Shown piece by piece: positions 1 to 19,917 of a stretch of 39,183 nucleotides of DNA. The translations under genes were made by a program, and so were the position numbers. Below the pieces are notes generated by a model, which had not been told where the DNA came from, searched no databases, and was given only the letters and a program-made list of their open reading frames with translations. The stretch is taken from positions 1 to 39,183 of the forward strand of contig CANQCY010000018.1 in assembly GCA_947591245.1 (NCBI GenBank). Reading direction: 5' to 3'. The DNA is from an uncultured Lachnospiraceae bacterium (GTDB taxonomy: Bacteria > Bacillota > Clostridia > Lachnospirales > Lachnospiraceae). The number at the start of each line of letters is the position of its first letter. Position 1 is the first letter of the stretch.

Positions 1-1298
1 TCACAGATCTCTTTGGGGTTCCCATATCCCCTTATCTCGCCCTTTTCAAGCCATAGCACTTTACTGCATATCTCCATGATCTGGCCTATACTGTGAGAAA
101 CGAATAACACAGTGGTTCCGCCGCCCATCAGCTCCAGCATTTTTCTTTTGCTCTTCTTCTGGAATGCCTCGTCGCCAACCGCCAAAACCTCATCTACAAT
201 CAGGATCTCCGGCTGTACGATCGTGGCTATGGAAAAGGCAAGGCGCATCAGCATACCAGAAGAATAGTTCCGAATCGGCTCATCTATAAAATTCTCAAGC
301 TCAGCGAAATCGACGTTCTCCTGGTACTTTCTCTTCAGAAATTCCTCGGAATATCCCAGAATCGCACCATTCAGAAATATATTCTCCCTTCCGCTTAAGT
401 CAAAATCAAATCCGGAGCCAAGAATATTTTTCCCGAGCAGCCCGCGGTCAAGAGCCTTATCAATCGCTTTCTGAAGCCGTTCTACCGCCAGCGGATATTC
501 CGCACGCACGTAAATATATCCGTGATGCGCATTTGTGGCAATCGCCGCAATCAGCATGCCCTCGATCACACGATGCGGTTCTCCCTCCATCATAGAACGG
601 TCCATAAAAGCGCCCGGATCTCCTTCATCACCATTACATACGACATATTTTTCCTCCACATCCTGATTCAACACCTGCTGCCATTTTCTTCCCGTTGGGA
701 AGCCGCCGCCTCCGCGCCCCCTCAGGCATGACTCGCTGATCTCATCCACAATTTGCTGCGGCGTCATGTCAAACAGCGCTTTCGCAACAGCGCTGTATCC
801 GCCGAGGGCAAGATACTCCGCAATGCTTTCCGCATTAATCCTGCCGCAATATTCAAGCGCGATGCGGGTCTGCTGCTTATAAAACGGAATGTCTTCCTGT
901 TTTACATAAGTTTTCTGATTCTGATCTTTGTAAACAAGATGATCTACCACCTCGTCATTGATAATACTCTTTTCAATAATTTCCTCGCAGTCTTCAAGCT
1001 TTACTTTGAGATACAGCCAGCCCATCGGCTCGATGCGAAGCAGGGGGCCCATCTCGCAAAACCCATGACATCCGCTTTTCTTCAAGCCGATGCTGTCGCC
1101 GTGCGGTTCCTTTTCCAAAAGCAGCGCACACTTGAGCCCTTTCTCTTCGATTATTTCTTTCATTTTCTCGTAAATATCAAGAGAGCCGCCGGCAACGCAC
1201 CCCGTCCCCGCGCAGATCAGGATTTGCTTTCTCTGGCTGTTTAAGGAGGCTCTGTATTCCCGCTGCTTCTCAACAAGCTCTTCCCTCGTACTAATCAT
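1..1298 (-). pseudogene. Chimeric ORF: NuoF/HydB N-terminal half fused in frame to Wzt-type ABC ATPase C-terminal half (partial at left edge)
   Basis: One open frame runs from the ATG at 1298-1296 to the left edge with no stop. Residues 1 to about 300 are the NADH-binding subunit of a bifurcating hydrogenase or complex I type enzyme: a thioredoxin-like 2Fe-2S region (CAGTGC, CHGFC), then the FMN/NADH motif RGRGGGGFPTGRKW and CNGDEGDPGAF. After LLGKNILGSGFDFD the sequence becomes a polysaccharide-export ABC ATPase: SGRENIFLNGA, signature YSSGM, Walker B EILIVDEVLAVGD and H-loop VLFVSHS. The switch lies at 399-419, where both families carry a G-x-G-F-D type motif. The NuoF half lacks its C-terminal part and the ABC half lacks Walker A, so neither should work. 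The ATG overlaps the nuoE-like stop (ATGATTAG) and has a GGAGG about 9 nt upstream. The ABC half is not a copy of the ATPase gene at 13762-14514, so its source is elsewhere. Confidence 0.85.
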
Positions 1299-1800
1299 TC
1301 GCTTCCGCCTCCTTCTCTGCCGCCTCAGACGCTTCCTTCTTCAGCTCTTCGATGAGTTCCCTCGCCCTCTCCGGCGTCATCGCCGGATGGACGTGGTCGT
1401 TTACCGTACACACCGGCGCCAGCCCGCATGCGCCCAGACAGGAAACGGTCTCAACCGTAAACATCATATCGTCCGTTGTCGGCTTATCCTCACTCACACC
1501 GAGATTTTTCCTGAATTCTTCCAAAATCGGAACAGATTTCCGTACGTGGCATGCCGTTCCGTCGCAAATCTTAATCACGTATTTGCCCTTCGGCTCCAGA
1601 GAAAAATTCTCATAAAATGTTGCAACCCCATAAATCTTAGCTTCACTTAATTTCAACTTTTTTGCTATGTAGCACAACGCCTTCTCCGGAAGGTAATGGT
1701 ACTCCTTTTGTATGTCCTGCATAATTGCGATCAAGAGAGTATGATTGTAGTCGTGCTGCTGCAAAATCTCATCCAGTTTTGCTATCTCCTTTTGCGTCAA
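1291..1800 (-). CDS. NuoE/HydC-like 2Fe-2S subunit of NAD-dependent hydrogenase or NADH dehydrogenase
   Basis: A 169-residue thioredoxin-fold ferredoxin subunit of the NuoE/HndA/HydC family, which passes electrons between NAD(H)-linked NuoF/HydB and the rest of the complex. The four cluster-binding cysteines appear as CDGTAC (C-x4-C) and CLGAC (C-x3-C), spaced as usual for the family. The N-terminal helical part (HYLPEKALCYIAKKL, ATFYENF) also fits. The C-terminus is unusually Glu/Ala-rich. The start is a TTG at 1800-1798, supported by AAAGGAG six nt upstream. It is followed, with overlapping stop and start, by the NuoF-like chimera. In Clostridia such pairs usually precede a catalytic [FeFe] hydrogenase subunit, which is not visible here because of the chimera or window edge. 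Confidence 0.88.
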   Translation of the reverse strand: MTQKEIAKLDEILQQHDYNHTLLIAIMQDIQKEYHYLPEKALCYIAKKLKLSEAKIYGVATFYENFSLEPKGKYVIKICDGTACHVRKSVPILEEFRKNLGVSEDKPTTDDMMFTVETVSCLGACGLAPVCTVNDHVHPAMTPERARELIEELKKEASEAAEKEAEAND

Positions 1801-1815
1801 TGTCTTCTCCTTTCT

Positions 1816-1853
1816 AAAAAGGCACCACTCTGAAGTTTCCTCAGACTGATGCC
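1816..1853 (-). terminator. Terminator-like hairpin with U-run upstream of nuoE-like gene
   Basis: On the minus strand two 13-nt arms pair at 12 of 13 positions (one G-G mismatch, one G-T wobble) around a 7-nt loop and are followed by TTTTT. The hairpin lies after the yfhO-like gene, so it could end the glycan operon, but it also lies between a candidate promoter and the nuoE-like ribosome binding site. Confidence 0.6.
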
Positions 1854-1872
1854 CGATTCATATAATGATATG

Positions 1873-1901
1873 ATTATAACATGAATAGCTCCCATCCACA
1901 A
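1873..1901 (-). promoter_or_regulatory. Candidate sigma-A promoter for the nuoE-nuoF-like genes
   Basis: On the minus strand TTGTGG (1901-1896) and a perfect TATAAT (1878-1873) are separated by 17 nt. The predicted start of transcription is only about a dozen nt before the terminator-like hairpin at 1853-1816. Confidence 0.5.
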
Positions 1902-1918
1902 CGGTTATTTATGAAAAT

Positions 1919-4612
1919 TCACCGTCGTTTTTTCCAATTGGCGGCAACCGTCAGAACGACGCCAAGCAGACTGACGAAAAATCCAAGTCCCAATCCCGGC
2001 GTTCTGTACTTAAGATCTATGCTGTGCTCCCCCTTCTCCATCCATGCGCCGATATACATTTTATTTATTTTCCCAATCTCCGCCTCCTTGCCGTCCACAT
2101 AAAGGCGATACCCGTTTTTGTACGGGACTGCAAGACACATGATCTTGTCCTCGAAAAGATATGGAACATCTGCCGATATGCTGCCGTCCTTCCGCACGGA
2201 AATGTTATAAAGATGATCCTCGCACAGCTTGTCCATCTTTTCCGCCACGCCGTCTACAGGCGCTGCGACCAGTTCGATATTTTCCAAACTGTACTCCGCC
2301 GGACCTTTGAGCGCCACGTTCAGCTCTCTTCCTTCCTTCCAGCCCGTTTTCTGAGACAGGCTTCCCAAATTAATGACATAGTCATTTCTGCCAAAATAAA
2401 AATCATAATTGCGGTTCGATATAAGAAATTGCTTCTTCATATCCCCCATCTTCACATTCGCCCATATATAATCCGCTTTCGCTTTATCAAGCTCGAGTCC
2501 GGTAAGGCGCAGATAATACTCCTTGCCCGGTTCCATAATAAATGACAGGCGCAATTTCCCCTTTTTCCCCGGTATATTTAATTTGCTGTTCTTCCATTCA
2601 AAATTTGCTCCCGCCGTCATATCAAAAGGAATCGATTCCGCCTCTCCACTGACAATTCCTTTTGTCGCGGCCGGCGACTTTTCCGCTTTTTCATAAAGGC
2701 TGGAATCCGGCTCCAGCACAGCGGATTCCAGTAATGTATCCTGACGCTCAAATAGATCTGACGCATCATAATCCCTTTCGCTCACATAGCTGTCATAAAA
2801 ATAACCAATCGACGTCTTATTTTTATTTTTGTATAAATTTTTCTTGCCCTTTACCCGTCGGAATCCATAAGGTACATACGATTTCTTGCGGCTCACGACA
2901 TATTTTACATTTGCCAGATTGGACAGAACCGTCCGCCCGTCATTTCCTGAAATACAGTGGGTAAACTTCATATCCGGCGTATTGCCGAGCGAAAACATAT
3001 ACTTGTAATATCCGGCATTAATAATGCTGTAATAAACGGAAACGCCGGCATAACATGCAATCATTGACTGATTCGGATTCTTTCCCTGATTCAGCATCAC
3101 ATCCACCCTCCCCAGCACGCCGTCATCGGAAAACGATGCGAGCTTTCCTGCCAGATTTACCGTTTTGTTTGACACATATTTATCCCTGACGCTACCGGCG
3201 TCTAAATATGCATCTGCCATATTCGCGCCAAACGGCTGGTAGAGGAAATTTATGTTTCCGATCAGATTTAATACCAGCATACCGTACAACGCCCGTTTCC
3301 GCCATAAATGGTTATGCGCCTTAAACAGGACGGCGATCATGCCGCCCAGCATGACTGCTGTATATACCGCCGTAAGCAGTCCGTCGTCAAAGGACACCGC
3401 CATGCACGCCGCTGCATATGCCGCTGCCAGACAGACCAGCATTTTGTGCCCTTTCCCATCCAGCGCTAAAATATCCGGCAATACGCGGACGAGAATCGCC
3501 GAGAGCAAAAACGCCGGAATAAACATAAACCGGTTTGTCACATATCCAAACCCATTCATCACATAGCCCGCAAAGGGCGAGGCAACCGCCACAAAGCACA
3601 GGCAGACGCAGTTTCTCATATAAACGGAATGCTTGTCCTTTTTACGAAACAGCACATACAATGCCAAAAAGACAATGACCGACATGGAAAAATAGCCTAC
3701 CGATCCCGCATCACGGTTTTCTGCCACCATGACGAACTTAGTAACCATATTTTTATAATACCCAAGCGGATAAAGAAGAAGGGAATGCAGCGACGTATAC
3801 GTTCCCGTCCGGCTGCTGGCCGCATATCCGTAAATCAGCGGTACAATGAGAGCTCCCGACATGAGCACGCCGCACGCGCCCGCCAGCAGGCACCGGATCC
3901 CATCCCGCCAAATCTCCTTCAAATGAAGCGTCGCCGCTCTTTTCAAGCCGCCGTACCTGAAAACGCTTTTGGCGGCAAAATATGCCAGCGCGCCAAGCAC
4001 GATCATGTAAAAGAAATAATATCCGCTCAGTATACAAAACAATACGCTCAAAGTGAGCGCAAGCGGCCCCTTTTTTTTCAAACTCCGCTCGACGCCGAGA
4101 AGAACCAGAGGCAGATAAATCATGGCATTCAAAAAGAACGGATCTTTCAGCGACCAGATCGCAAAACCGCAGAACGCATAGACGAGCGCACCATATACGC
4201 TGTCTTTCGGTTTCCATTTCATTTCCCGGCAGTACAAAAGAAACGATATGCCAGACAGATACAGGCGCAGAGCCACGAGAAAATCGTATAAATATTCCGT
4301 GTACGCCGACGGCACAAACGTGCTGAACAGAGTCAGCGGATCGCCAAGCCCGTAATTGGCAAGCGTCGTTATAATATCCTCCCCCTGCCCGATCGTATAA
4401 TCCACCATCGGAACGCAGGGCGAGCCATGAAGGATCGAAAGTATAATGCTCCGGTAATAACGTCCGAGATAACTGAGCGCCGGATAGTATTGCCGGAAGC
4501 CGTCGCTTTCCCACACAAAACTTTTTCCCTGTATAAAAAATGTTATAAACCCGCAAAGAAATATAATCAGAAACAGCACAGTATAGCGGATCAAGCATCT
4601 TTTTCTGCTCAT
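1919..4612 (-). CDS. YfhO-family multi-pass membrane protein (GT-C-like, probable glycan glycosylation)
   Basis: An 897-residue membrane protein. The N-terminal half has about a dozen hydrophobic segments starting at residue 8, with luminal-type loops such as WESDGFRQYYPALSYL and IGQGEDIITTLANYGLGDP, typical of the YfhO family. The C-terminal 400 residues are a soluble extracellular domain ending with a last membrane helix and a KKRR tail. YfhO homologues in Bacillus and Listeria are linked to adding sugars to teichoic acid outside the membrane from lipid-linked sugars; that role is inferred here. It is the last gene of the glycan operon. Its ATG overlaps the stop of the upstream glycosyltransferase (ATGA), suggesting translational coupling. 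Confidence 0.85.
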   Translation of the reverse strand: MSRKRCLIRYTVLFLIIFLCGFITFFIQGKSFVWESDGFRQYYPALSYLGRYYRSIILSILHGSPCVPMVDYTIGQGEDIITTLANYGLGDPLTLFSTFVPSAYTEYLYDFLVALRLYLSGISFLLYCREMKWKPKDSVYGALVYAFCGFAIWSLKDPFFLNAMIYLPLVLLGVERSLKKKGPLALTLSVLFCILSGYYFFYMIVLGALAYFAAKSVFRYGGLKRAATLHLKEIWRDGIRCLLAGACGVLMSGALIVPLIYGYAASSRTGTYTSLHSLLLYPLGYYKNMVTKFVMVAENRDAGSVGYFSMSVIVFLALYVLFRKKDKHSVYMRNCVCLCFVAVASPFAGYVMNGFGYVTNRFMFIPAFLLSAILVRVLPDILALDGKGHKMLVCLAAAYAAACMAVSFDDGLLTAVYTAVMLGGMIAVLFKAHNHLWRKRALYGMLVLNLIGNINFLYQPFGANMADAYLDAGSVRDKYVSNKTVNLAGKLASFSDDGVLGRVDVMLNQGKNPNQSMIACYAGVSVYYSIINAGYYKYMFSLGNTPDMKFTHCISGNDGRTVLSNLANVKYVVSRKKSYVPYGFRRVKGKKNLYKNKNKTSIGYFYDSYVSERDYDASDLFERQDTLLESAVLEPDSSLYEKAEKSPAATKGIVSGEAESIPFDMTAGANFEWKNSKLNIPGKKGKLRLSFIMEPGKEYYLRLTGLELDKAKADYIWANVKMGDMKKQFLISNRNYDFYFGRNDYVINLGSLSQKTGWKEGRELNVALKGPAEYSLENIELVAAPVDGVAEKMDKLCEDHLYNISVRKDGSISADVPYLFEDKIMCLAVPYKNGYRLYVDGKEAEIGKINKMYIGAWMEKGEHSIDLKYRTPGLGLGFFVSLLGVVLTVAANWKKRR

Positions 4613-7047
4613 ACCCCGTATCTCTCCTTATCCCTTTTTTCCTTTAGTTTTTTCTTCGTTGACAACCGAAATCTGACAAGGCGGCTCTCATCCCGCCGTA
4701 TCACAAAACTTCGCATAATAACAATATATTTAATCTCCTGCCCGCATGCCTTCAGCCAGGCTGCCAAAGCCTGATTCATCATCCTCTTCTCAATAAAAAA
4801 TAACGTATTGCTCCAGTCATGCTTTTTAACAAATGCATCAAATTGCTTTTTATTCTCACACTCCGGCAAATAGACGACGGCCCTTCGCTGCCTGCGGTTT
4901 CTTTTTCCCTGATTGAAGATCTCGCGGCATGTCATGCCGGCCGCGGCCGTACCGCCCGCATCTGCGCCTTCGGCCGCCGACAGCGCATTTATCCATTCAG
5001 CCGCCTGCTCCGCACTTTCAAATGTCTCAAAGCGCTGTCCGGCGTCCGGCGTCAGCCCCTGGCTCCATGCCACGTCAGGCTCATTGGCCACAAAACGGCA
5101 CGCCGGCTTTCCAAGCGCTTTCATGACATACAATTCCGACCCATATTCACCGACCAAACCGTCGCAGCCAGCCAACACCTCACTGATCTCTGCGTTCTTT
5201 GGCAGAAATTCAATATGCTTCCATATATTCTCACGGAATTTCCTGCGCACTGCCTTTGGAAAGCAAACGAGAACCTTCCGTCCGTCCGCGATTTTCTCGT
5301 CCAGTTCTGTCAGCTTCTTTCTGAGTTCGCTTAAAAACAGATAATAGTCTGCGTCCTCCAGTCCCGGAAATACTTTCATCGCCGGCAAATAGGCAATGCG
5401 TATCTCACCCTTTTCCCTGTCCGGCAGGCAGTCGCCCCATTTCCGAAAAAAATCGGCGATCGGTATATAAACTGCCTTATCCGGACAAATTTCATCCATA
5501 TTGTAGCGCTTGAGAAGCGGCACAAACTCATCCCGGATCTCTTCCGGAAACAGGATGGCGTCCGCCTGGGCAAGTCCAAACTGGACGCTCTGCATATTCT
5601 TTGTACCGTATGTCACATCTCTGCCCTGCCCGAGGACGGACGGCATAAAGTCGGTAAAAATAAACTTCTGTCCCTTTCGTTTCCGGTAATACTCCACCAC
5701 GCCCCGGTTTGTCACGATATATTCCGCCGTGGCAAGCAGCTCCACATACCGTTCCGACTTCATATCTACAATATTCCAATTCTCATCGTACGCCTCGCGG
5801 AACTTATCCGCCCTCGCGGCGTCCATCGCCGCCACATAAACCTTATAGCCGCCCTCCTTGTCTTCAGCAAGAAGCTTTCCGATATAATAACACGCACCGT
5901 GAACGTCGTTCCCATGATAACATTTTATGAGAACCGCGCCCTTTTCCAGCTTTCGCTCCGTCACAAGCTCCTCGAAATATTCCGCACGGCTTTTTCCTTC
6001 CCCGCCCTCTGCCTTCTTCTTTTTCTTCGCCGCCTTTTTGTCCTCTTTGTCCATTTCATCCGAAAACAGGCCGTCCTGTTCTTCTACCGTATCCCCGGCC
6101 TGATCGTCCTTGGACGCCTCTTCGCCGTTTCCCGCCTGAAATTCCGCATATACGCCTGATTCCCGCCAGCCGGGAAAATCTCGGTCCAAAAGCGCATACG
6201 CACGCTCGGTAAATGTCTTTTTAAAGTCTTCGTTTTTGTACCTCTCCATCTCGTTAAAACGTGCGAATATATGACGGATATTAAAGAACAGAAGCACATC
6301 GTAAAACGCTTCAAACTGTCCCCGTTTGCGGAACGCATCATTGACGATTTTCAGCGCATCTACGATCTGACCGTGCCTCTCATCAAATGTGCTGAGCGTC
6401 CCCCCTTTTCTGCCCTTCATATAATAATACAGTTTTTCGTGCACCCTGCCGACCTTTTCGGCATCCAAAAAAAGAGGTATGACCGCGCACAGATCCTCAA
6501 AAATCATCCCTTCCGGAAACCGAAAACCGACACGCCTCAAAAGATCTGCCCGATACAGCTTGTTCCACGGATACGGGGCGTTCGCCCGAAGAATAAGCGG
6601 ATTTTCATAAATGCTTCGGTTAAATTCCCCCCTGTAACCGGTCTGGTATCCCGTGATCCGTCCGGTAGCAGCCTCACATCCGCAGTACCCGCATGTCACG
6701 ATGTCGCACCCATTTTCTTCAGCCTCTTTGTACAGCTTCTCATACATCTGAGCGCTGATAAAATCATCGCTGTCCACAAAACCGATATACTCTCCCGTTG
6801 CCTTTTCGATCCCCAGATTTCTCGCCGACGACTGTCCGCCATTTTCTTTTTCATACAGGCGGATCTTATCCGGAAAGCTCTCTTCGTATTCTCTGACAAT
6901 CTCTCCCGTCCGATCCGTACTGCCATCATTTACTACAACAACCTCCAGATCTTCATACGTCTGGCTTACCACCGAATCCAAACATCTCCTTATATACTTT
7001 TCGACATTATACGCCGGAATAATCACGCTTATTGTTTTTCCCCTCAT
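4609..7047 (-). CDS. GT2 glycosyltransferase fused to degenerate TagF-like glycerophosphotransferase domain
   Basis: An 812-residue cytoplasmic fusion. Residues 1 to about 240 are a GT-A family 2 glycosyltransferase: SVIIPAYNVEKYIRRCLDS, VVVNDGSTD and the metal/nucleotide motif DSDD at 92-95. Residues about 305-355 are a highly charged linker with a run of lysines. Residues about 365-700 resemble CDP-glycerol:glycerophosphate transferases (EYIVTNRGVVEYYRKRKGQ fits the family), but the catalytic WHGT box is replaced by TDFMPSV (about 465-471) and the ITDYSS box by VGEYGS (about 632-637). The C-terminal 110 residues are basic. The GT2 part is likely active; the second domain may bind substrate or be inactive. 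It overlaps both neighbours by 4 nt (ATGA), so translation is probably coupled with the ligase-like gene before it and the yfhO-like gene after it. Confidence 0.8.
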   Translation of the reverse strand: MRGKTISVIIPAYNVEKYIRRCLDSVVSQTYEDLEVVVVNDGSTDRTGEIVREYEESFPDKIRLYEKENGGQSSARNLGIEKATGEYIGFVDSDDFISAQMYEKLYKEAEENGCDIVTCGYCGCEAATGRITGYQTGYRGEFNRSIYENPLILRANAPYPWNKLYRADLLRRVGFRFPEGMIFEDLCAVIPLFLDAEKVGRVHEKLYYYMKGRKGGTLSTFDERHGQIVDALKIVNDAFRKRGQFEAFYDVLLFFNIRHIFARFNEMERYKNEDFKKTFTERAYALLDRDFPGWRESGVYAEFQAGNGEEASKDDQAGDTVEEQDGLFSDEMDKEDKKAAKKKKKAEGGEGKSRAEYFEELVTERKLEKGAVLIKCYHGNDVHGACYYIGKLLAEDKEGGYKVYVAAMDAARADKFREAYDENWNIVDMKSERYVELLATAEYIVTNRGVVEYYRKRKGQKFIFTDFMPSVLGQGRDVTYGTKNMQSVQFGLAQADAILFPEEIRDEFVPLLKRYNMDEICPDKAVYIPIADFFRKWGDCLPDREKGEIRIAYLPAMKVFPGLEDADYYLFLSELRKKLTELDEKIADGRKVLVCFPKAVRRKFRENIWKHIEFLPKNAEISEVLAGCDGLVGEYGSELYVMKALGKPACRFVANEPDVAWSQGLTPDAGQRFETFESAEQAAEWINALSAAEGADAGGTAAAGMTCREIFNQGKRNRRQRRAVVYLPECENKKQFDAFVKKHDWSNTLFFIEKRMMNQALAAWLKACGQEIKYIVIMRSFVIRRDESRLVRFRLSTKKKLKEKRDKERYGV

Positions 7048-8519
7048 TCCGCCGCCTCCTTCTCTTCGATCTTCTTCTCAAAAATATCCCCAAATGCAAA
7101 CCAGTAGGCAAACGCCGGAAAGATTTCAAACGGCAAAAACAGGCACTCTGTCATCGTCGCCACCACAAAGCCCACGCAGATCGCAGGAATCAGAAAAGCA
7201 TAGGTGGCGTTGCGCCTCCGGTTCGTCATATAAAAAAATACAGAACGCGTAATACTAAGCACAGTCATAATCAAATAAAAGATAAAACTGCCCACACCAT
7301 AAGTATAGGCAAATTGCAGCCAGTTATTGTGTGCATGCGAAACTTTTTTTCCATTTACGAGAAGCGTAATTCTCTTGTGCCCCTGCCAATTAAGGCGCTG
7401 CATATACGCCTTATAAATCGTAATCCTGCCGGTTGAAATTTTGTTCAGCGTCTCGCTGCTGTCCAAAGTTCTGATCAGCCTTCCCAATATGCTGTTGTCC
7501 TCTATGTCTTTTTCCGGAAGATCGATACTCTCAAAGGCGTCCGATTCCGCCAGCACCTTATCGCCGATATCCTCGATTTTTTCTCCATTTGACAAGTAAA
7601 GCACATCCTCGTCAAAAATCAGCATATGGCCGACAAGCGGAGGGAGATTCCGGACTCCGGCATAAAAAACCGGGTAGCAGACGGCAGAGATCAATATAAG
7701 CGCCGCCAGCCCCTTTACGAAATTTTTGTATTTCTTCTGCCTTTTCCCCATGACGATCCGCAGCGCGATCCATAGGAATAAAATCGAACTGATAGCGAGC
7801 ATCGCCGTACGAGCCTGCGACACTGAAAGATAAAAAATCACAAGCGCCAGCTGTATATAAGTCGGCAGGCATTTCCGCAGCGGCTTGCCCGTCTCCACAT
7901 TCCAGTCCAAATCTGACATATAAACGGCAAAAACCACGTACAGATAAAGTCCGAACGTATTCGGATTCGTAAATATCCCCGCATATCTTCCGCCTTCAAA
8001 AAACGGGCGGAACAAAAAGGAAATGACCGCCATGAGAAAAAACGCCGCTTTTACGGCATCCTTAAACGCCTTCCAAAGCAAATCCTTCCTGCCGTTATTC
8101 TGCCATACGAAAAAGACGCCGGTAAATACAAACGCCAAAACAATTCCCAGGCCGCACGCCTTCTTGCTCACCAAAAAATCCGAGACCGTAAATGCCGTAC
8201 ACATGCCAAACCATGCAATACTAACCGACCTGCGCCATGGTTTGCGCACCAGCGTCCGATCAAGCGATAAAATAGCGATAATAAGCATCAAAAAGATACC
8301 GCATGCCGTATTGTAAAAATAGCTCTCTTTCAACAAAACATATCTCACAATGCAAAAAAGCACGAGATCTGCCATAAAGCATGCCGTTATCAAAAAATTT
8401 CTCACTTTCGGACTGATTTTCCCCACAATCGGTATCCACGGGGAAAAGAGACTGATAAATAAGTCCTGAAGGCGATTTATCATAATCCTTCTCCATTCTC
8501 GCCGCAGCCCTGACAGCAT
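7044..8519 (-). CDS. O-antigen ligase/Wzy-like polymerase family membrane protein
   Basis: A 491-residue protein with about ten to twelve membrane segments. It carries the family signature region GRYAGIFTNPNTFGLYL (about 185-200), a large extracellular loop with many acidic residues (about 300-375), and a second signature SHAHNNWLQFAYTYG near residue 395. Members polymerise or ligate lipid-linked glycans outside the membrane. No Wzx flippase is present in this operon, which has an ABC exporter, so a ligase role is at least as likely as a polymerase role (inference). Two starts are possible: ATG 8519 (AGGAGG about 10 nt upstream) and ATG 8483 (GGAG about 7 nt upstream, giving MINRLQDLF). It overlaps the next gene by 4 nt. 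Confidence 0.8.
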   Translation of the reverse strand: MLSGLRREWRRIMINRLQDLFISLFSPWIPIVGKISPKVRNFLITACFMADLVLFCIVRYVLLKESYFYNTACGIFLMLIIAILSLDRTLVRKPWRRSVSIAWFGMCTAFTVSDFLVSKKACGLGIVLAFVFTGVFFVWQNNGRKDLLWKAFKDAVKAAFFLMAVISFLFRPFFEGGRYAGIFTNPNTFGLYLYVVFAVYMSDLDWNVETGKPLRKCLPTYIQLALVIFYLSVSQARTAMLAISSILFLWIALRIVMGKRQKKYKNFVKGLAALILISAVCYPVFYAGVRNLPPLVGHMLIFDEDVLYLSNGEKIEDIGDKVLAESDAFESIDLPEKDIEDNSILGRLIRTLDSSETLNKISTGRITIYKAYMQRLNWQGHKRITLLVNGKKVSHAHNNWLQFAYTYGVGSFIFYLIMTVLSITRSVFFYMTNRRRNATYAFLIPAICVGFVVATMTECLFLPFEIFPAFAYWFAFGDIFEKKIEEKEAAE

Positions 8520-8534
8520 CCCTTTCCATCCTCC

Positions 8535-9215
8535 TCAGGAAAGTACTGCGATGACCGTGCGAAACAAAACAACAAAATCTTTTGCCAGCGAATAATGTCT
8601 GATATACCGGAGATTATATTCCATCTTTTCGGGAAGTATTTGATTCACATAGACCTCATCGACATCCGTCCCCGCAATCAAAAGCTTTTCTTCGTCCTTA
8701 TATTCAATACTTGCCGTAGACGTAACTCCCGCCGGCATCAAAAGCGTGGCATACATCTCCGGCTCATACTTCGCCACATACTTTTCTACTTCCGGCCTCG
8801 TCCCGACAAACGACATTTCTCCCTTTACTATGTTAAACAGCTGGGGCAGTTCGTCAAGCCGCACTTTGCGCAAAAATTTCCCGATTCCGGTGACGCGGGC
8901 ATCTCCTGCCACTGTCACCTGCGCTCCCTTGTCCGCTGCGTCCGAAACCATCGTACGGAATTTGTATATATAAAATTTTCGTCCATATGTAGTAATCCTC
9001 ACCTGACGGAAAATCACTTCTCCCGGCGACGTCAGCTTCACCGCCGCGCCGATCGCGAGCATAAACGGAAATAAAACCGCAATCAGTACAAGCGAAAAAA
9101 CCAGATCGAATATCCGCTTGCAGACGAGCTCTGCCCGCTTGCGGGAGAGGATTTCATAATATGGCTTCGTCTGCGCGTTTCTCATATAGTCAGGAAGCTC
9201 TTCCCATTTCTTCAT
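8535..9215 (-). CDS. Initiating sugar-1-phosphate transferase (bacterial sugar transferase, PglC/WcaJ type)
   Basis: A 226-residue monotopic phosphoglycosyl transferase. It moves a sugar-1-phosphate from a UDP-sugar to undecaprenyl phosphate, the first membrane step of glycan assembly. One hydrophobic segment lies at about residues 35-60 (FDLVFSLVLIAVLFPFML). It is followed by the family motifs FRQVR, KFRTM, the catalytic RLDELPQLFNIVKGEMSF and VGTRPE. The short length shows a PglC-like core without extra N-terminal membrane helices. It starts 1 nt after the aminotransferase stop, which suggests that the aminotransferase makes its amino-sugar nucleotide substrate. Confidence 0.9.
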   Translation of the reverse strand: MKKWEELPDYMRNAQTKPYYEILSRKRAELVCKRIFDLVFSLVLIAVLFPFMLAIGAAVKLTSPGEVIFRQVRITTYGRKFYIYKFRTMVSDAADKGAQVTVAGDARVTGIGKFLRKVRLDELPQLFNIVKGEMSFVGTRPEVEKYVAKYEPEMYATLLMPAGVTSTASIEYKDEEKLLIAGTDVDEVYVNQILPEKMEYNLRYIRHYSLAKDFVVLFRTVIAVLS

Positions 9216-9216
9216 A

Positions 9217-10461
9217 TCACTCTGCCACGCCTTTCCCTCTCTCTTCCATTATACATTCTTCCAATGCGCGGAGCACATACTGAATATCTTCATCGGTAAG
9301 TTTCGTATGCAGCGGAAGCGTCATCTCATTTTCAAACATGCGGCGGGCGTTGGGATAATGAACCGCATCGAATCCCATATTCCGATACGCTGTCAGAAGC
9401 GGCAGAGGTTTGTAGTGCACATTCACCGCCACGCCTTTTTCCGCCATCTTCTCAATCATCCGATCCCTGTCTTTTCGCGAACAGCCGTGCATGCGCATCA
9501 AATATAAATGTCCGCTTGAAACCCGGTTCCCGCGAAAATGCGAAAGCGCTTCCAGCACAATCTTATCCTGTTTTTCATTTATCTTTTTAATTCCCTCATC
9601 ATATTGCTCAATAATCTCCCTGCGCCGTTTCAAGAGGCCGGGATACCTTCTGAGCTGCGCCAGGCCGAGCGACGCCTGAATATCCGTCATATTGCACTTA
9701 TACGCCGGCGAGAGGATATCATACTCCCATGCGCCCGCTTTCGTCTTGGCAAGGGCATCCTTAGACTGGCCATGAAGCGACAGAAGCATAAACTCGCGGT
9801 AAATCTCGTCCGAACTGATCCCGTCCATCTCTTTCCACACGACCGCTCCTCCCTCTGCCGTCGTCAGATTTTTTACGGCATGAAAGGAAAACGCGGTAAA
9901 ATCTGCGAGCCTGCCCGCCGGCGTTCCGCCGACAGAAGCGCCGAACCCATGAGCGCAGTCCGACAAAATCAGAATCCGCCCCAATGCTTTCTGATATTTG
10001 CTGCCGCCCGGCTGAAATATATTTCTTTTTTTCTCTGCGATTTCATATATTTTTTCATAATCGCACGGAATCCCCGCCACGTCTACCGGTATGACCGCCT
10101 TTGTAGCGGGCGTAATATATTTTTCCAAACTGTCATAATCCATTTCAAAGGAACCGCTGCCCGTATCCATAATCACGGGTTTTGCGCCTGTATGGCAGAT
10201 CGAGCTTGCCGTTGCCGTATATGTATATGCCGTTGTAATTACCTCGTCTCCCCGCCCGACGCCGAACAGGCGAAGCGTCATCTCCATGCATGCCGTCGCT
10301 GAATTGAGGCAGACGGCTCTCTCTGTGCGGCACCATTTCGCGATCTGACGCTCAAACTCTTTCGTTTTCGGCCCGGTCGTGATCCACCCCGAACGCAGGG
10401 CGTCCGCGACCTCCTGGATTTCCTCTTCCGTAATATCCGGGGGTGAAAATGGAATTTTCAT
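9217..10461 (-). CDS. DegT/DnrJ/EryC1/StrS-family sugar aminotransferase
   Basis: A 414-residue PLP enzyme of the sugar nucleotide aminotransferase family (PglE/ArnB/WecE-like), converting a keto-sugar nucleotide to an amino sugar. The N-terminus IPFSPPDITEEEI and SGWITTGPKT are typical. The cofactor aspartate lies in ILSDCAHGFGA, and the Schiff-base lysine in FHAVKNLTTAEGG at about residue 220. The length is slightly above the usual 370-390 because of an insertion around PGGSKYQKALG. The partner dehydratase that would make the keto sugar is not in this window. It sits directly before the initiating sugar transferase in the operon. Confidence 0.9.
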   Translation of the reverse strand: MKIPFSPPDITEEEIQEVADALRSGWITTGPKTKEFERQIAKWCRTERAVCLNSATACMEMTLRLFGVGRGDEVITTAYTYTATASSICHTGAKPVIMDTGSGSFEMDYDSLEKYITPATKAVIPVDVAGIPCDYEKIYEIAEKKRNIFQPGGSKYQKALGRILILSDCAHGFGASVGGTPAGRLADFTAFSFHAVKNLTTAEGGAVVWKEMDGISSDEIYREFMLLSLHGQSKDALAKTKAGAWEYDILSPAYKCNMTDIQASLGLAQLRRYPGLLKRRREIIEQYDEGIKKINEKQDKIVLEALSHFRGNRVSSGHLYLMRMHGCSRKDRDRMIEKMAEKGVAVNVHYKPLPLLTAYRNMGFDAVHYPNARRMFENEMTLPLHTKLTDEDIQYVLRALEECIMEERGKGVAE

Positions 10462-10546
10462 ACTCTGTCCTTTCCTAAACGGTCAAAGAGTTCCCTATGA
10501 AACAAGAGACCCCTGCCATACAATGACGGAATCCCTTGCATCCTTT

Positions 10547-12082
10547 CTACTGTTCTTTGTTTGCCGGCGCCGCCGATGAGGCTGAATCATCCGATGAAAC
10601 CGGTTTCTTTACATCTCCCGTATCATCTCCCTCATCCTCCTGCACTTCCGACTCGGGCGTCGCCGCCAAATATTTCTTTATTTTCTTGGAAATCTTGTCA
10701 ACTGAATTGTAATCCGGAAGACACACATACAGCTTACGCGACTGATATGAAAACGTCGTCCTCATGGCTCCTGTACCGTTTGCATTGGCAAACTTCACTT
10801 TCCACTGCGCCATATCGTCAAGCTGCATCTTACACAGCGCCGTGATTTCTTTTGCAGACATATTCGTCTGAAAATTCTTGGAAACCGTCTTTAAAAGCTT
10901 CGCATAATTCGGCAGAATATCCGGCGACATCGCCTTATTCAGAATCGCCTCGACCATATGCTGGTGGTTGCGCCCGCGCTGATAATCGCCGTTCGCAAAG
11001 TGATGCCTCTCGCGGCAGAACGCCAGCGCCTGTTTGCCATTCACCTTATTATAGCCTTTTTTGAAGCTCGGCCCCCAATCCGATGTGAAGTCAAAATCGG
11101 AATAAAGCCGGATGCCGCCAAGCAGGTCGACAATTTTCTGAACGCTCGTAAAGTTCACTCGCACATAATAGTCAATATCTATGTCGTACAGCATCTCCAG
11201 CGTCTTAATCGAGCAGTCCACGCCATGGTTGCCCGCATGGGTCAATTTATCCGGAATACCGTTCGATACCGAAAGAGGCACATAATAATCGCGCGGCGTC
11301 GTCGTCAGAAGAATCTGTTTCGTATTCGGATTGACCGTCATAATGACATTCACGTCGCTTCGGCTCGTCTGCTCAATATCGCCGTATAAATCAATGCCGC
11401 TCAGATAAAGATTAAACGGCGTCGTCGTAATATCGTCCTTTTTCGGTTCCTTTTTCTCCTCGATCACAGTCTCTACGCTGTGCGTACTCAACACGCGCGT
11501 ATCATCGGAAAACGTCTTATAATACTCTTCGATCAGATTCCTGTTTGCCTCGTTGATCACGATTACGCTGACATCCTTCGCATATAAGGCGTCGACGAGC
11601 GTATCATTATCCTCATACTCGCCAATCTCCGGTTTCTGTCCGACCGCTTCCTCTACCTTTGCAAGCGCCTTATCCGTATTCGCCCTGTCGTTTACGCCGA
11701 GAATGCCGAATTTGTAATCCTTCGTATCGTAAATGCTTTGCGCTGCGTCATCTTTCAGTACGATATAGGAAAGCCGGTCAATCTTAACCTGATTGCCTGC
11801 AAATTCCTCAATAGCAGAATACGTATACACGCAGTAATAACCGCCGCCGATATAAAACAAGCATATGGCCATACACAGAACCCTTCCGACAATATAAAGC
11901 TTATCGGTCATCTGGCTGAAAACGCCATACGCCAGAAAGAACAGCATAACCGCAATCAAAACGGCGATAAACTTCGTCGGTATCGCTCCCACAAAAACCG
12001 TCACGCCGACCAGCGCCGCGCTAATCAATATCTGCACAACAAGAAAAACAATACTCAATTTCCGCTTTAATAATGTCTTCAC
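10547..12082 (-). CDS. LytR-CpsA-Psr (LCP) family glycan-to-wall ligase
   Basis: An LCP enzyme, which transfers lipid-linked teichoic acid or polysaccharide to peptidoglycan on the outer face of the membrane. The N-terminus has about three membrane helices within the first 90 residues. An extracellular region follows, with the LCP core NVIMTVNPNTKQILLTT, TPRDYYVPL, the ring NHGVDCSIKTLEMLYDIDID, LLGGI, and the Arg-rich AFCRERHHFANGDYQRGRNHQHM. The C-terminus is Ser/Asp-rich. I prefer the GTG at 12082-12080 (511 residues) because GGAGG lies 6-7 nt upstream; an upstream ATG at 12133 would add 17 residues but lacks a clear ribosome binding site. Confidence 0.9.
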   Translation of the reverse strand: MKTLLKRKLSIVFLVVQILISAALVGVTVFVGAIPTKFIAVLIAVMLFFLAYGVFSQMTDKLYIVGRVLCMAICLFYIGGGYYCVYTYSAIEEFAGNQVKIDRLSYIVLKDDAAQSIYDTKDYKFGILGVNDRANTDKALAKVEEAVGQKPEIGEYEDNDTLVDALYAKDVSVIVINEANRNLIEEYYKTFSDDTRVLSTHSVETVIEEKKEPKKDDITTTPFNLYLSGIDLYGDIEQTSRSDVNVIMTVNPNTKQILLTTTPRDYYVPLSVSNGIPDKLTHAGNHGVDCSIKTLEMLYDIDIDYYVRVNFTSVQKIVDLLGGIRLYSDFDFTSDWGPSFKKGYNKVNGKQALAFCRERHHFANGDYQRGRNHQHMVEAILNKAMSPDILPNYAKLLKTVSKNFQTNMSAKEITALCKMQLDDMAQWKVKFANANGTGAMRTTFSYQSRKLYVCLPDYNSVDKISKKIKKYLAATPESEVQEDEGDDTGDVKKPVSSDDSASSAAPANKEQ

Positions 12083-12193
12083 TGTAACCCTCCAATTCTT
12101 CGGATGTTCTTTACCGCAATCCGCAATCCGCATATTTCGCCCCTAATTGAATCCTGCGGACCGGTTCATTGCTCTTGACCCTAACATCATAAC

Positions 12194-12222
12194 ATTATAT
12201 ATCATCTCCCGCAAAAAATCAA
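12194..12222 (-). promoter_or_regulatory. Candidate internal promoter before the LCP gene
   Basis: On the minus strand TTGATT (12222-12217) and a perfect TATAAT (12199-12194) are 17 nt apart, overlapping the end of the TagB-like gene. It could give separate expression of LCP and the downstream genes. Confidence 0.55.
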
Positions 12223-13329
12223 TTCCAAAAGTCTATTTGTCGAATTTGCATCGAGACTGTCGAAATTCTCACGGATAAATCTTTCATTTGCCGAAACGTC
12301 CGCCTCTGCCATGCATCGCATCAGCTCGCTCTGGCTTGCCGCCACCGGCCCCGGCACAAAGGTTTTGTAATCCCGGTAAAAGCTTCTTCCGCTGGATTCA
12401 AACGCCTCCAGATCATAAGCATAAAAAATCATCGGTCTGTTGAGAAAACAGTATTCAAATACGATCGAGGAATAATCGGTAATGAGCATATCAGCCGCGG
12501 CAAGCAGCGTCGTCACGCCCGGATAGCCCGACACATTTATTATATTATCCCATTTTCCGCTTTCTAATTCCCCGCCCATCTGATTCGCAACATACGGGTG
12601 AAGGCGGATCATAAGCGCCTCATCCGGCGGCAGCTCCGCCGACATGCGGTCGAGATCCAGATGAATCTGCGGATTTGCGACCTCGGCATCTCGAAAAGTA
12701 GGCGCATAAAGAATGCATTTCTTCCCCCGCAGTTCCTCGTGATCCTCAAAAAAACTTTTCCGTCTTTTCTCCAGAAACGGGCGGTTTAACATCAAATCCG
12801 TTCTCGGAAGCCCAAGCACATAAATCCGGTCGTCCGGGATTCCGAATGCGCTTGCGTATTCCTTTTTCACCTGCTCGGAATTCACGATGAGATGCGTAAT
12901 TCTCTGATTCGCCCGATATTCCAGTTTTTTCAGCGTCCCTTCGTTCACGTCCTGCCCGAATTTTTTAATCGTGCCGGTTCCATGCCAGAGCTGGACCACC
13001 TTGGTTCGTTTTGAAAAACGGATATACGCCATCGGAAGAAATTCATTATCCAAAAAAACATAGCGCGCCGTAGCCAGATGATACGCCTTGACAATAAAAA
13101 AATTAATGGGGTTCGTTATTTTATCATCCCTCGTAAACCAGATGCACCGCATGGCGCCGTATTTTTTCCTGATCGCATCCGCCACGATTCCGATATTTCC
13201 TTCCGGGCTTTTGTCATGGGTAGCCACGAAAAACGCCTTTTTCGCATTTGTTCCGAACAGCCTTGAGAGATGGAAAAAAAAGGCAAATACGATATAACCG
13301 ATCCGTTTAATCATTTTCTTTACTGCCAA
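12202..13329 (-). CDS. CDP-glycerol glycerophosphotransferase family protein (TagB/TagF-like)
   Basis: A 375-residue peripheral membrane enzyme that transfers glycerol-3-phosphate from CDP-glycerol to a lipid-linked acceptor. Both family motifs are intact: LWHGTGTIKKFG (catalytic His about residue 126) and MLITDYSSIVFEYCFLNRP near residue 290. An Arg-rich basic N-terminus with an aromatic hydrophobic stretch (IGYIVFAFFFHLSRLF) suits membrane binding. The length is that of single-domain TagB/TarB primases rather than the long TagF polymerases, so it may add only one or a few units. The start is a TTG at 13329 with AGGAAG about 9 nt upstream inside tagD; ATG 13314 is an alternative. It overlaps the tagD end by about 23 nt. 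Confidence 0.85.
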   Translation of the reverse strand: MAVKKMIKRIGYIVFAFFFHLSRLFGTNAKKAFFVATHDKSPEGNIGIVADAIRKKYGAMRCIWFTRDDKITNPINFFIVKAYHLATARYVFLDNEFLPMAYIRFSKRTKVVQLWHGTGTIKKFGQDVNEGTLKKLEYRANQRITHLIVNSEQVKKEYASAFGIPDDRIYVLGLPRTDLMLNRPFLEKRRKSFFEDHEELRGKKCILYAPTFRDAEVANPQIHLDLDRMSAELPPDEALMIRLHPYVANQMGGELESGKWDNIINVSGYPGVTTLLAAADMLITDYSSIVFEYCFLNRPMIFYAYDLEAFESSGRSFYRDYKTFVPGPVAASQSELMRCMAEADVSANERFIRENFDSLDANSTNRLLELIFCGR

Positions 13330-13711
13330 GCCCCAAATCTTCCTTAATTCTGGATGTCGAAATGCCTTCGGTTCTCGGAAGGTAGACGACTTCGCAATAC
13401 TCCTTCAGAAAGTCAAATTTTCCTTTCCAGTCATCTCCCATCACAAATACATCCACATCATTGTTTACGACGTCATCTATCTTTTGTTCCCATGTGTATT
13501 CAGGGAGTACCTCATCCACGTATCTGACCGCTTCCAATATAATTTTACGGTCTTCAAAAGAATAATATGCCTTTTTTCCCTTGCCCGCGTTAAATTCGTC
13601 GCTGGAAACGACGACAATCAAATAATCCCCCAGTTCCTTTGCCCGCCGGAGCAGATTAATATGCCCCACATGCAGCAAATCATACGTACCGTACGTAATT
13701 ACTTTTTTCAT
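13307..13711 (-). CDS. tagD: Glycerol-3-phosphate cytidylyltransferase
   Basis: A 134-residue cytidylyltransferase making CDP-glycerol, the donor for the TagB/TagF-like enzyme that follows. Motifs are VITYGTYDLLHVGHINLLRRA (HxGH nucleotide-binding motif in the first 20 residues), the substrate segment FVMGDDWKGKFDFLKE, and the C-terminal TEGISTSRIKE, which matches the conserved ISTT-like box of TagD. The length is normal for the family. The ATG at 13711 has GGAGG 8 nt upstream; a longer frame to 13756 is less likely. It lies 50 nt after the ABC ATPase gene. Confidence 0.94.
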   Translation of the reverse strand: MKKVITYGTYDLLHVGHINLLRRAKELGDYLIVVVSSDEFNAGKGKKAYYSFEDRKIILEAVRYVDEVLPEYTWEQKIDDVVNNDVDVFVMGDDWKGKFDFLKEYCEVVYLPRTEGISTSRIKEDLGLGSKEND

Positions 13712-13761
13712 CTTATAATCCTCCGTATCTTCATCCGCATTCACTCTGTCATGCATTTGAC

Positions 13762-14514
13762 TCAGGCTTCCAGCCCCAGCTTTTCATCGTAAAGATCCAC
13801 GATATCCTCGACGTCTCCCTGTGCAATCAGCTTCCCCTGCTCAAGCAAAATCCCCTTATTGCACATCCGGAGCACCTGATCTGTGGAATGCGACACAAAA
13901 AGCACCGTCACCCCTTTATCGAACATACCCTGTATGCGGGCCTCGCATTTTTTCCGGAACCGCTTATCGCCGACGCTTAACACCTCATCCAGAATCAGAA
14001 TATCCGGCTCAACCACCGTTGCGATTGAAAATCCGAGTCTCGCCTTCATGCCGGACGAATAATTTTTGACCGGAACATCAATAAATCTGCCAAGCTCCGA
14101 GAATGCGACAATATCGTCATATTTTTCCTGAATAAATTCCCTGCTGTAACCGAGCACCGCACCATACAGAAAAATATTTTCCGCCCCGGTATACTGCCTG
14201 TCAAAACCGGCTCCAAGCTCCAAAAGGGGCGCAATCTTACCATAGCACCGGACATTTCCCTCCGTCGGCTTCAACACGCCCGCAATCACTTTCAAAAGCG
14301 TGCTTTTGCCCGCGCCGTTCATGCCGAGGATACCGACCCGGTCTCCCCGCTGAATTTCAAAATGAATATCTTTTAAAGCCCAAAACTCCTGATACATCAA
14401 TTCTTTCTTGATCATTTTAATGACATATTCTTTTATATTGTCGACTTTCTGCGAGCTGAGATTAAATTTCATGCTCACATGATCTACCTGCAGGGCCAAA
14501 GCGTTTTTCGCCAT
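13762..14514 (-). CDS. Polysaccharide/teichoic acid ABC exporter, ATPase subunit (Wzt/TagH type)
   Basis: A 250-residue ABC ATPase that powers export of undecaprenyl-linked polymer with the permease encoded just upstream. Walker A is GMNGAGKST, the Q-loop region is PLLELGAGFD, the signature is YSSGMKARLGF, and Walker B is DILILDEVLSVGD followed by VLFVSHS. It ends soon after the nucleotide-binding domain, with no C-terminal carbohydrate-binding domain. GGAGG lies 6 nt before the ATG, and the permease stop is 15 nt upstream. Its segment GAGFDRQYTGAENIFLYGA is homologous to, but clearly different from, the ABC part of the chimera at the left edge. Confidence 0.93.
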   Translation of the reverse strand: MAKNALALQVDHVSMKFNLSSQKVDNIKEYVIKMIKKELMYQEFWALKDIHFEIQRGDRVGILGMNGAGKSTLLKVIAGVLKPTEGNVRCYGKIAPLLELGAGFDRQYTGAENIFLYGAVLGYSREFIQEKYDDIVAFSELGRFIDVPVKNYSSGMKARLGFSIATVVEPDILILDEVLSVGDKRFRKKCEARIQGMFDKGVTVLFVSHSTDQVLRMCNKGILLEQGKLIAQGDVEDIVDLYDEKLGLEA

Positions 14515-14529
14515 CGTAAACCTCCATCA

Positions 14530-15342
14530 TCATATGTTCAGTATAAACGTATCCTGTTTTCGGTAAAAAATAAACATTCCAATCCCCATTGCCACAATGC
14601 TCACGCTGAACGTATAGGCGAGAAGCTTCATGTCAAAAGGCTGTCCAAACAGCGCCCGCCGGAAATTGTGGATAATCCCGAACAGCGGGTTCGCCTTAAT
14701 CAAAGTCTGCTTCTGCGGACTCAGGCTGCTGGCAAAATAAAAGATTGCGCTGCAGTACATAATTAGCATAAGTAATACGCTCCACAAATATTCAATATCC
14801 CTGAAAAAGACACAGAGCGTCGCAAGCGTCAGTCCGGCGCCCACACAGAGCAGCAGCAGATTGAGCAGCGGAATCAGCGCCAGAAACATACGGGCGTTCA
14901 ACGGCGCGCGATAATCTCCCGTTGCAAGGAAAAACATCATCACTCCCACAAGTACAACGAGCGAAATCAAAAAAATGGCAAAGTTTGACAGGATGCCTGA
15001 AAGCGGATACATGTATTTAGGCACATACACTTTTTTTATCATGCCGCCGTTCGTCCGGATCGACTTCATCGCCGCATTCGTCGAAGAAGAAAAGAACGAA
15101 TACAGCAGCCGTCCCGTCAGCACGTAGACCGGGAACGGCACTCCGTCAAAAGCGGCATCCTGATGGTTTCTCCCGAGAATTTCTCCAAAAACCACGCTGA
15201 GCACGATCATCGTCAGCAGAGGTTCGATCAGCGTCCACAGTATACCCAGATAGGACCTGCGGTATTTCAGCTTAATATTTTTTTTCACCAGCTCCCCAAG
15301 CAAGTAGCGGTAACGGCTGAAATTTTTAATCACCTGAGACAT
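14530..15342 (-). CDS. Polysaccharide/teichoic acid ABC exporter, permease subunit (Wzm/TagG type)
   Basis: A 270-residue ABC-2 permease with six membrane helices. The N-terminal RYRYLLGELVKKNIKLKYR and YLGILWTLIEPLLTMIVLS are typical for Wzm/TagG. NPLFGIIHNFRRALFGQP near the C-terminus is also conserved. It pairs with the ATPase gene that follows. The ATG at 15342-15340 has GGAGG 5 nt upstream; the same frame stays open to 15537, but the extension lacks family similarity. It is the first gene of the glycan operon, behind a leader of about 190 nt. Confidence 0.93.
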   Translation of the reverse strand: MSQVIKNFSRYRYLLGELVKKNIKLKYRRSYLGILWTLIEPLLTMIVLSVVFGEILGRNHQDAAFDGVPFPVYVLTGRLLYSFFSSSTNAAMKSIRTNGGMIKKVYVPKYMYPLSGILSNFAIFLISLVVLVGVMMFFLATGDYRAPLNARMFLALIPLLNLLLLCVGAGLTLATLCVFFRDIEYLWSVLLMLIMYCSAIFYFASSLSPQKQTLIKANPLFGIIHNFRRALFGQPFDMKLLAYTFSVSIVAMGIGMFIFYRKQDTFILNI

Positions 15343-15455
15343 AGCTTCCTCCATTCCAAATAGTATAATCTCTAAGCTGGCAGGTATAAGGCTCTCAGAT
15401 TCCTTGTTCATGAAAATCCCCCGCTCTTTTTGCCAAAAACACTTGACAAATCCAT

Positions 15456-15493
15456 CGGAAAACGCGTCGCTCCGCAGCGTCAGAGTTTTTCCG
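15456..15493 (-). promoter_or_regulatory. Nested stem-loop in leader of glycan operon
   Basis: Outer arms CGGAAAA (15456-15462) and TTTTCCG (15487-15493) enclose a second stem CGCT/AGCG with loop CCGC (15468-15479). It lies about 110-150 nt before the permease start, inside the predicted untranslated leader. There is no U-run, so it is not an ordinary terminator. Confidence 0.35.
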
Positions 15494-15494
15494 G

Positions 15495-15508
15495 CATGAG
15501 CGCTCATG
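15495..15508. promoter_or_regulatory. 14-bp perfect palindrome, possible operator
   Basis: CATGAGCGCTCATG is a perfect palindrome about 25-40 nt downstream of the predicted minus-strand transcription start, a position suited to a repressor site. Confidence 0.35.
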
Positions 15509-15540
15509 ATTCCGAGAAACCATATAGTTCCAATCACTAA

Positions 15541-17281: not shown

Positions 17282-18694
17282 ATGATTTTTTCAACATACC
17301 AATTTACCTTGATCTTTTTGCCAATCACATTTGCCGGGTACTTCATTTTGCACCGCCTGAAATACACGAGTCTGGCTAAAATATGGCTTGTACTGGCATC
17401 TTTTTATTTCTATGCGGCAGGAAGCCCCGATTTCTTCCCGTTCTTTCTCGGAAGCGTCGTCGGAAACTATGTCGTAGGAAATACCCTGAGCAAGCTTCAG
17501 GGACAAGAACACCGGATCGAGCGCGGTCTTCTTCTGACCGCAGGCGTTCTGGCAAATGTCGGGCTTCTCGGCTACTATAAATACACAGATTTCTTTATCA
17601 GCAATGTAAACTTTATCGCCGGAACGCACATACCGCTCCAGCATATTATACTGCCGATCGGTATCTCCTTTTTCACGTTCCAGCTTATCGCCTTTCTCGT
17701 GGATTCTTTCCGTGGGGAAACGAAAACTTATGACGTGCTGGACTACTTGCTGTTTATCACCTTTTTCCCGCAGCTCATCGTGGGGCCGATCATTCACCAC
17801 GCAGAGGTCGTTCCGCAGTTTGAAGACGAAAAGAATCACCGGCTTATTTATGAAAATGTAGCGAAAGGGCTTTTCATTTTCTCGATCGGCTGCGCAAAGA
17901 AAATGATGATCGCAGATCCCCTGACAACTGACGCGCAGGGCTTTTTCGATCATGTGACGGACAATCTTCCGATGATACAGTCATGGTTCCACTCCATTGA
18001 GTATACGGTGTCTTATTACTTTGACCTGTCCGGATATGCCGATATGGCGATCGGACTGGGCTGGATGTTTAATATTAAAATCCCGCAGAATTTCAATTCA
18101 CCTTACAAGGCAAAGGATTTCCAGGAATACTGGCAGAGATGGCACATGACGCTTTCGCGCTTTCTCGGTTCCTACATTTTCCGAAATGTATACCGGAGGG
18201 GCGTGAGTTACCGGAATTATTATGTCGCGACAATGTGTACATTTTTTGTATCCGGTTTCTGGCATGGCGCCGGGTGGACCTTCGTCGTATGGGGACTCGT
18301 AAACGGCATTCTGGTCTGCATCGCTTCTTATCGAAATAAAAAAGGCATGAATACTCCCGTATGGCTCGGCGTTCCGCTCACCTTTTTACTGGCAGTTCTG
18401 ACGCGTATTCTCTTTGTGTCCGATACGTTCGCAAATGCGGCAAATGTGTTCAAGGGACTGGTAAATGTGTCTACGCTCCACCTCTCCACCTTGAAAACGG
18501 TTTTGGCGAACAACTGGGACATGTGGCTTCTCACACTGTTCGGCCTCGCCATCTGCTGGTTCTGCCCGACCACGCTGAAACTATCCGAGAAATTTAAACC
18601 AAATTGGAAGCATCTGCTGTATGCGGCAGCGCTGCTGATCATCTGTATCCTGAATATGGACAAGGTTGTTCAGTTCCTCTATTTCCAATTTTAA
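17282..18694 (+). CDS. MBOAT-family membrane O-acyltransferase (AlgI/DltB/PatA-like)
   Basis: A 470-residue multi-pass protein that in known systems passes acyl groups from a cytoplasmic donor across the membrane to an extracellular partner for glycan O-acylation. The start FSTYQFTLIFLPITFAGYF is typical of AlgI-like proteins. The conserved PQLIVGPIIHHAEVVPQF, YWQRWHMTLSRFLGSYIF (His 288) and the catalytic FVSGFWHGAGWTFVVWG (His 328) are all present. AAGGAG lies 6-7 nt before the ATG, 36 nt after the carboxyltransferase stop. The two SGNH-like genes downstream are the expected partner type. The substrate is probably the wall glycan made by the divergent operon (inference). Confidence 0.93.
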   Translation: MIFSTYQFTLIFLPITFAGYFILHRLKYTSLAKIWLVLASFYFYAAGSPDFFPFFLGSVVGNYVVGNTLSKLQGQEHRIERGLLLTAGVLANVGLLGYYKYTDFFISNVNFIAGTHIPLQHIILPIGISFFTFQLIAFLVDSFRGETKTYDVLDYLLFITFFPQLIVGPIIHHAEVVPQFEDEKNHRLIYENVAKGLFIFSIGCAKKMMIADPLTTDAQGFFDHVTDNLPMIQSWFHSIEYTVSYYFDLSGYADMAIGLGWMFNIKIPQNFNSPYKAKDFQEYWQRWHMTLSRFLGSYIFRNVYRRGVSYRNYYVATMCTFFVSGFWHGAGWTFVVWGLVNGILVCIASYRNKKGMNTPVWLGVPLTFLLAVLTRILFVSDTFANAANVFKGLVNVSTLHLSTLKTVLANNWDMWLLTLFGLAICWFCPTTLKLSEKFKPNWKHLLYAAALLIICILNMDKVVQFLYFQF

Positions 18695-18711
18695 AAGAAA
18701 GGATTCTTGTG

Positions 18712-19890: not shown

Positions 19891-19917
19891 GTTCCTTAAG
19901 AAAGGTATGATAAATAT

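Follow-up and report, generated by a model that had tools for sequence, protein, structure and literature searches.

An in-frame hydB-wzt fusion at a contig tip of a Lachnospiraceae genome assembly is very probably a chimeric contig end

Introduction

HydB, as it is described in PMC6288185, is a NuoF-like subunit that binds flavin and NAD. Assemblers of short-read metagenomes are known to produce chimaeras between genomes, and one benchmark (PMC11261854) counts 22.15 (MEGAHIT) and 2.63 (SPAdes) chimeric contigs per genome. Here we analyse a window of 39,183 bases from an uncultured Lachnospiraceae bacterium, at whose first bases an open frame combines a piece of hydB with a piece of wzt. The window spans contig C18 in full, and window base 1 is the contig end. 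The assembly has 2,074,162 bases in 55 contigs, with 85.41% completeness and 0.44% contamination; judged by these values and by its relatives, many of which are labelled metagenome-assembled genomes (MAGs), it appears to be a MAG itself.

Results

One open frame joins half of a HydB to half of a Wzt

On the minus strand, an open frame starts with an ATG at window position 1298 and runs without stops for 432 codons to position 3, thus reaching the window's first bases. A first-pass annotation had reported a single frame passing from a hydrogenase subunit into an ABC export ATPase, and both protein matches and NCBIfam matches bear this out: the product consists of two unrelated proteins in series, to which HydB contributes its N-terminal half and then a Wzt-type ABC ATPase its C-terminal half. 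The first part, a NuoF-like NADH/FMN subunit of [FeFe] hydrogenase, occupies residues 1-301 (396..1298, minus strand) and matches PF01512. Residues 2-302 share 86-92% identity with hydB of the same genus, with hits at E ≤ 1e-20 in 21 of the 36 genomes of that genus. The NCBIfam NuoF model TIGR01959 matches residues 157-302. The second part, belonging to a polysaccharide-export ABC ATPase (1..422, minus strand), runs off the contig end. Its residues 293-432 match Wzt-type ABC ATPases in a protein search of 60 relatives, and the NCBIfam models for teichoic-acid/galactan export ATPases (Wzt/TagH-type; NF010065 and NF050108) cover residues ~293-431. The NCBIfam scores lie under the whole-protein cut-offs, as fragments would be expected to do. 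The fused wzt piece also contains the motifs NYSSGM and ILIVDEVLAVGD, which we take to be ABC signature-like and Walker-B-like, respectively. When all 1298 nt were searched against plasmids, only partial matches came back, in 14 records at 64-82% identity.

Both parts are incomplete at the join. PF01512 is matched over positions 1-97 of 150, so that the hydB half ends inside the FMN domain, and a profile search of the window protein gave no match to PF10589, the NuoF 4Fe-4S region; the missing parts sit on another contig, C2 (see below). The wzt half begins at model position 92-98 (NF010065, 92-230 of 549; NF050108, 98-236 of 244). In the Wzt of relatives, a P-loop (Walker A, GxNGxGKST) lies upstream of the aligned part, and the fused half is devoid of it. 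The hydB half is thus without the NuoF 4Fe-4S region and the wzt half without its P-loop region; in agreement with the earlier view that neither could work alone, each lacks essential parts. A functional fusion protein made of an NADH/FMN module and an ATPase half has the open frame, and that alone, in its favor; however, a hydB half that stops within its FMN domain, an ATPase half without the P-loop region and the absence of the fusion from all 109 hydB loci described below make such a protein extremely improbable.

The join lies in a stretch that both families can encode

The match to hydB extends as far as residue 302, and that to Wzt begins at residue 293. The overlap, residues 293-301 (window 396..422, minus strand), reads LGSGFDFDL, nine residues that both the HydB and the Wzt families are able to encode. 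Same-genus hydB alleles read GSGFDF-[DE]-L-x-I-S-Q-GAGAFVCGE (12 readable of 21 same-genus loci), in disagreement with the GSGFDFD-IE continuation that had been proposed for hydB, and the Wzt of another genus (L133) reads LELGSGFDFDLSGREN at this place. Because hydB continues with [DE]-L-x-I-S, the leucine that follows FDFD is likewise common to both families. The join had been placed in a shareable stretch of about 21 nt; its location is thus confirmed, and its length has to be extended to up to 27 nt.

At the nucleotide level, the best hydB allele is identical to the join stretch at 26 of 27 positions and the best wzt compared at 21 of 27. Of 109 hydB loci, 85 could be read by pattern, as could 14 of 15 wzt loci; over the 1190 pairs that they form, the longest exact run in common is 17 nt. 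With this shorter run as the longest seen, an exact sharing of 21-27 nt by hydB and the donor wzt is no more than plausible. The 21-mer was found only at the join, once in the genome when up to 3 mismatches were tolerated and nowhere else in 392 genomes of the order with up to 1 mismatch. Hence a check proposed earlier, that of looking for complete hydB and wzt copies sharing this k-mer, does not reveal the parents. As both families encode LGSGFDFDL, the join itself is hidden within the common stretch; its being in frame might speak against a misjoin, although shared codons would give the same frame anyway. More generally, a stop-free and in-frame fusion at a contig tip can arise when unrelated families encode the same nine residues, which calls for caution.

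Contig C2 ends in the missing half of hydB

PF10589 gave a single match above the cut-off in the genome, on C2, and one further match at chance level (E 0.17). The piece of hydB on C2 is a 324-residue frame that starts with RGAGAFVCGE and has no boundary before the contig runs out at base 193424. The gene that follows it carries the iron-only hydrogenase domain PF02906, which identifies this gene as hydA, and hydA directly follows hydB in 5/5 relatives compared. Of the 410 positions of TIGR01959, the window piece covers 12-157 and the C2 piece 160-410. We aligned the two pieces separately to 109 hydB loci, of which no more than 97 are distinct; in every locus they share a frame, with a spacing of 9 nt. 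These loci comprise 29 from the protein search of relatives and the 80 best of 577, with 12 contigs, judged by their length, present in both sources. For this spacing, ends were extrapolated where the local alignment fell short, a step that was unnecessary for the 21 same-genus loci; a reading based on a motif script caught 103 of the 109 loci, the other 6 being outside its pattern, and the alignment reading took them all. Only the last of the nine spacer bases is retained on C2, so that 8 nt are missing between the hydB piece of C18 and C2.

The first and second halves of hydB are 92.7% and 91.3% identical to the nearest relative (L013), and such near-equal values are as expected of one gene. 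No second N-terminal half of hydB was detected in the genome, nor any other match over the hydB part of the frame. We also observed a GC content of 73% in the 60 nt with which the C2 piece of hydB begins. Taken together, C18 and C2 are probably chromosomal neighbors, separated within hydB by ~8 nt that were not assembled. The true continuation of the broken gene, the C-terminal half of hydB, is thus located at a contig end of the same assembly. Because the rest of hydB sits at another contig tip of the same genome, we read the fusion as an assembly error, and the earlier suggestion of an assembler that had switched paths receives strong support.

The alternative that had been proposed is a real recombination; such an event, or a translocation, would have taken place in the organism or a subpopulation of it, with the GSGFDFD-coding stretch as microhomology between hydB and a wzt acquired from elsewhere. 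A join that is in frame and within codons common to both families agrees with such an event, and a hydB split over two contigs would also be expected from a real breakpoint. However, a translocated hydB tail should adjoin something, and C2 just stops, 8 nt short of the hydB of C18. Moreover, the fusion is present in 0/109 hydB loci, a count to be read knowing that we identified no second genome of the host species.

Gene order around the two contig ends

Directly upstream of hydB lies a NuoE-like (hydC-type) gene (1291..1800, minus strand; PF01257), which is 90-91% identical to its counterpart and found in the same order in 3/3 relatives (L125, L126 and L128). The complete wzt of the window (13762..14514, minus strand; PF00005) also shows 90-91% identity to the syntenic wzt in 3/3 relatives. 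The region 1291-15537, which comprises the glycan/wzt operon and then the NuoE-like gene and hydB, keeps its gene order in 3/3 relatives; within it, the genes at 1919-4612 and 4609-7047 are more diverged in those 3 relatives (51-57% identity) than their neighbors (64-93%).

On C2, the gene content of the region downstream of hydA (173500-190700) is unlike that of the five relatives compared, and over the last 20 kb of this contig the matches to them are confined to hydA and the hydB piece. Comparison of relatives with one another shows that L150 has only the operon genes in common with L146-L149, whereas L147 has far more in common with L148 and L149. Since some relatives likewise share just the operon genes, the limited synteny on C2 argues neither for nor against C2 as the continuation of C18.

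Elsewhere in the window, two adjacent proteins encoded at 18604-21057, after an MBOAT acyltransferase gene (17282-18694), are 55% identical over 376 residues and represent a tandem duplicate; neither has a Pfam match at E 0.001.

Origin of the wzt tail

In other genera, the Wzt proteins of 13 loci (L131-L139 and L141-L144) are 56-74% identical to the fused wzt piece. The window's own wzt had been dismissed as the donor, rightly so, as its protein is 53% identical to the fused piece. When a full-length wzt was used as a probe on the genome, it matched the fused piece at 70%, the window's own wzt at 51% and other ABC ATPases at ≤49%, this last value corresponding to just 53 P-loop residues on contig C6. 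The probe gave no candidate for the wzt front half in the genome, which leaves the suggestion that the donor resides there unsupported, although the front half could be merely unassembled, the genome being 85% complete. The GC content of the wzt piece (46.8%, and 58.0% at third codon positions) is in line with the neighboring genes, and composition thus fails to separate the two halves.

DNA searches of 392 genomes of the order, including this one, gave as the best long match for the tail an identity of 73% over a length of 328 nt, in a genome of a different family (G126). Shorter stretches of the ABC core match higher in the order genomes, for example 74% over 188 nt and 84% over 43 nt. Samples of the class (391 genomes, E ≤ 1e-20) and of the phylum (299 genomes, E ≤ 1e-30) gave matches of 67-70%; the three samples overlap, and each contains this genome. 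No donor was thus found in the genome itself, in the 60 relatives searched with proteins (36 of the same genus) or in the order, class and phylum samples searched with DNA. With the best long match at 73% and in another family, the tail probably derives from an organism outside the sampled genomes, as far as sequence similarity can tell.

These results also bear on recombination. A donor could be lacking from a genome that is 85% complete, but the wzt front half was not found in it, and the fused piece sits exactly at a contig tip. In the absence of any positive evidence, with no fused copy in the 109 hydB loci and no genomic wzt donor, we consider that a genuine microhomology event is very unlikely. 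If it were true, the fusion would record the loss of a hydrogenase by microhomology recombination at the level of the strain, with an operon broken by a foreign wzt tail joined through nine shared codons, and would be of modest interest.

Discussion

We conclude, with a probability of roughly 94%, that the hydB-wzt fusion is a chimeric contig end, produced either by the assembler or by a chimeric library molecule. The gene itself would be a hydB of the ordinary kind, part of a hydCBA-type [FeFe] hydrogenase operon and running from C18 into C2. Extension of C18 most likely stalled at the GC-rich start of the C2 piece, which would have been poorly covered, and C18 would then have been extended by ~395 nt with the wzt tail through the shared stretch of up to 27 nt. 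The source of the tail was most likely a second organism present in the sample, and the join would have been made during assembly or during library making. C18 and C2 abut with 8 nt missing and do not overlap by k-1, which argues against a simple fork in the assembly graph and suggests a break in coverage followed by a wrong extension.

A library chimaera, formed by template switching during PCR or amplification and then used at a low-coverage contig end, is one case included in the above estimate, and by itself we hold it for unlikely. It would have the same anatomy as an assembler error, and a short shared stretch next to a GC-rich flank could favor template switching; but, viewed without reads, the two are indistinguishable, and the product is an artefact either way.

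Whichever way the chimeric end was made, the fusion is almost certainly no real biological feature and holds no biological novelty. The first ~395 bases of C18 are probably foreign, and the position of the two hydB pieces provides a scaffolding hint that places C18 next to C2.

Comparison with known systems

Multimeric [FeFe] hydrogenases of the hydCBA type in Lachnospiraceae have HydB as their NuoF-like subunit. Residues 1-301 and the C2 piece, each compared separately, cover a normal hydB and, as in a hydCBA-type operon, a NuoE-like gene precedes hydB and hydA comes after it. Unlike in these systems, the gene is split over two contigs with 8 nt unassembled, and its first piece carries a wzt tail of other origin. 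Residues 293-432 align with Wzt/TagH-type ABC ATPases at the identities given above; unlike these proteins, they are without the P-loop front part, and on the 3' side the contig end truncates them. Finally, the inter-genome chimeric contigs of PMC11261854 differ from the present case in that no donor genome was found among the genomes searched here. They resemble it in two respects: two unrelated genes meet, at the tip of a contig, in a short stretch that both could share, and the true continuation sits on another contig.
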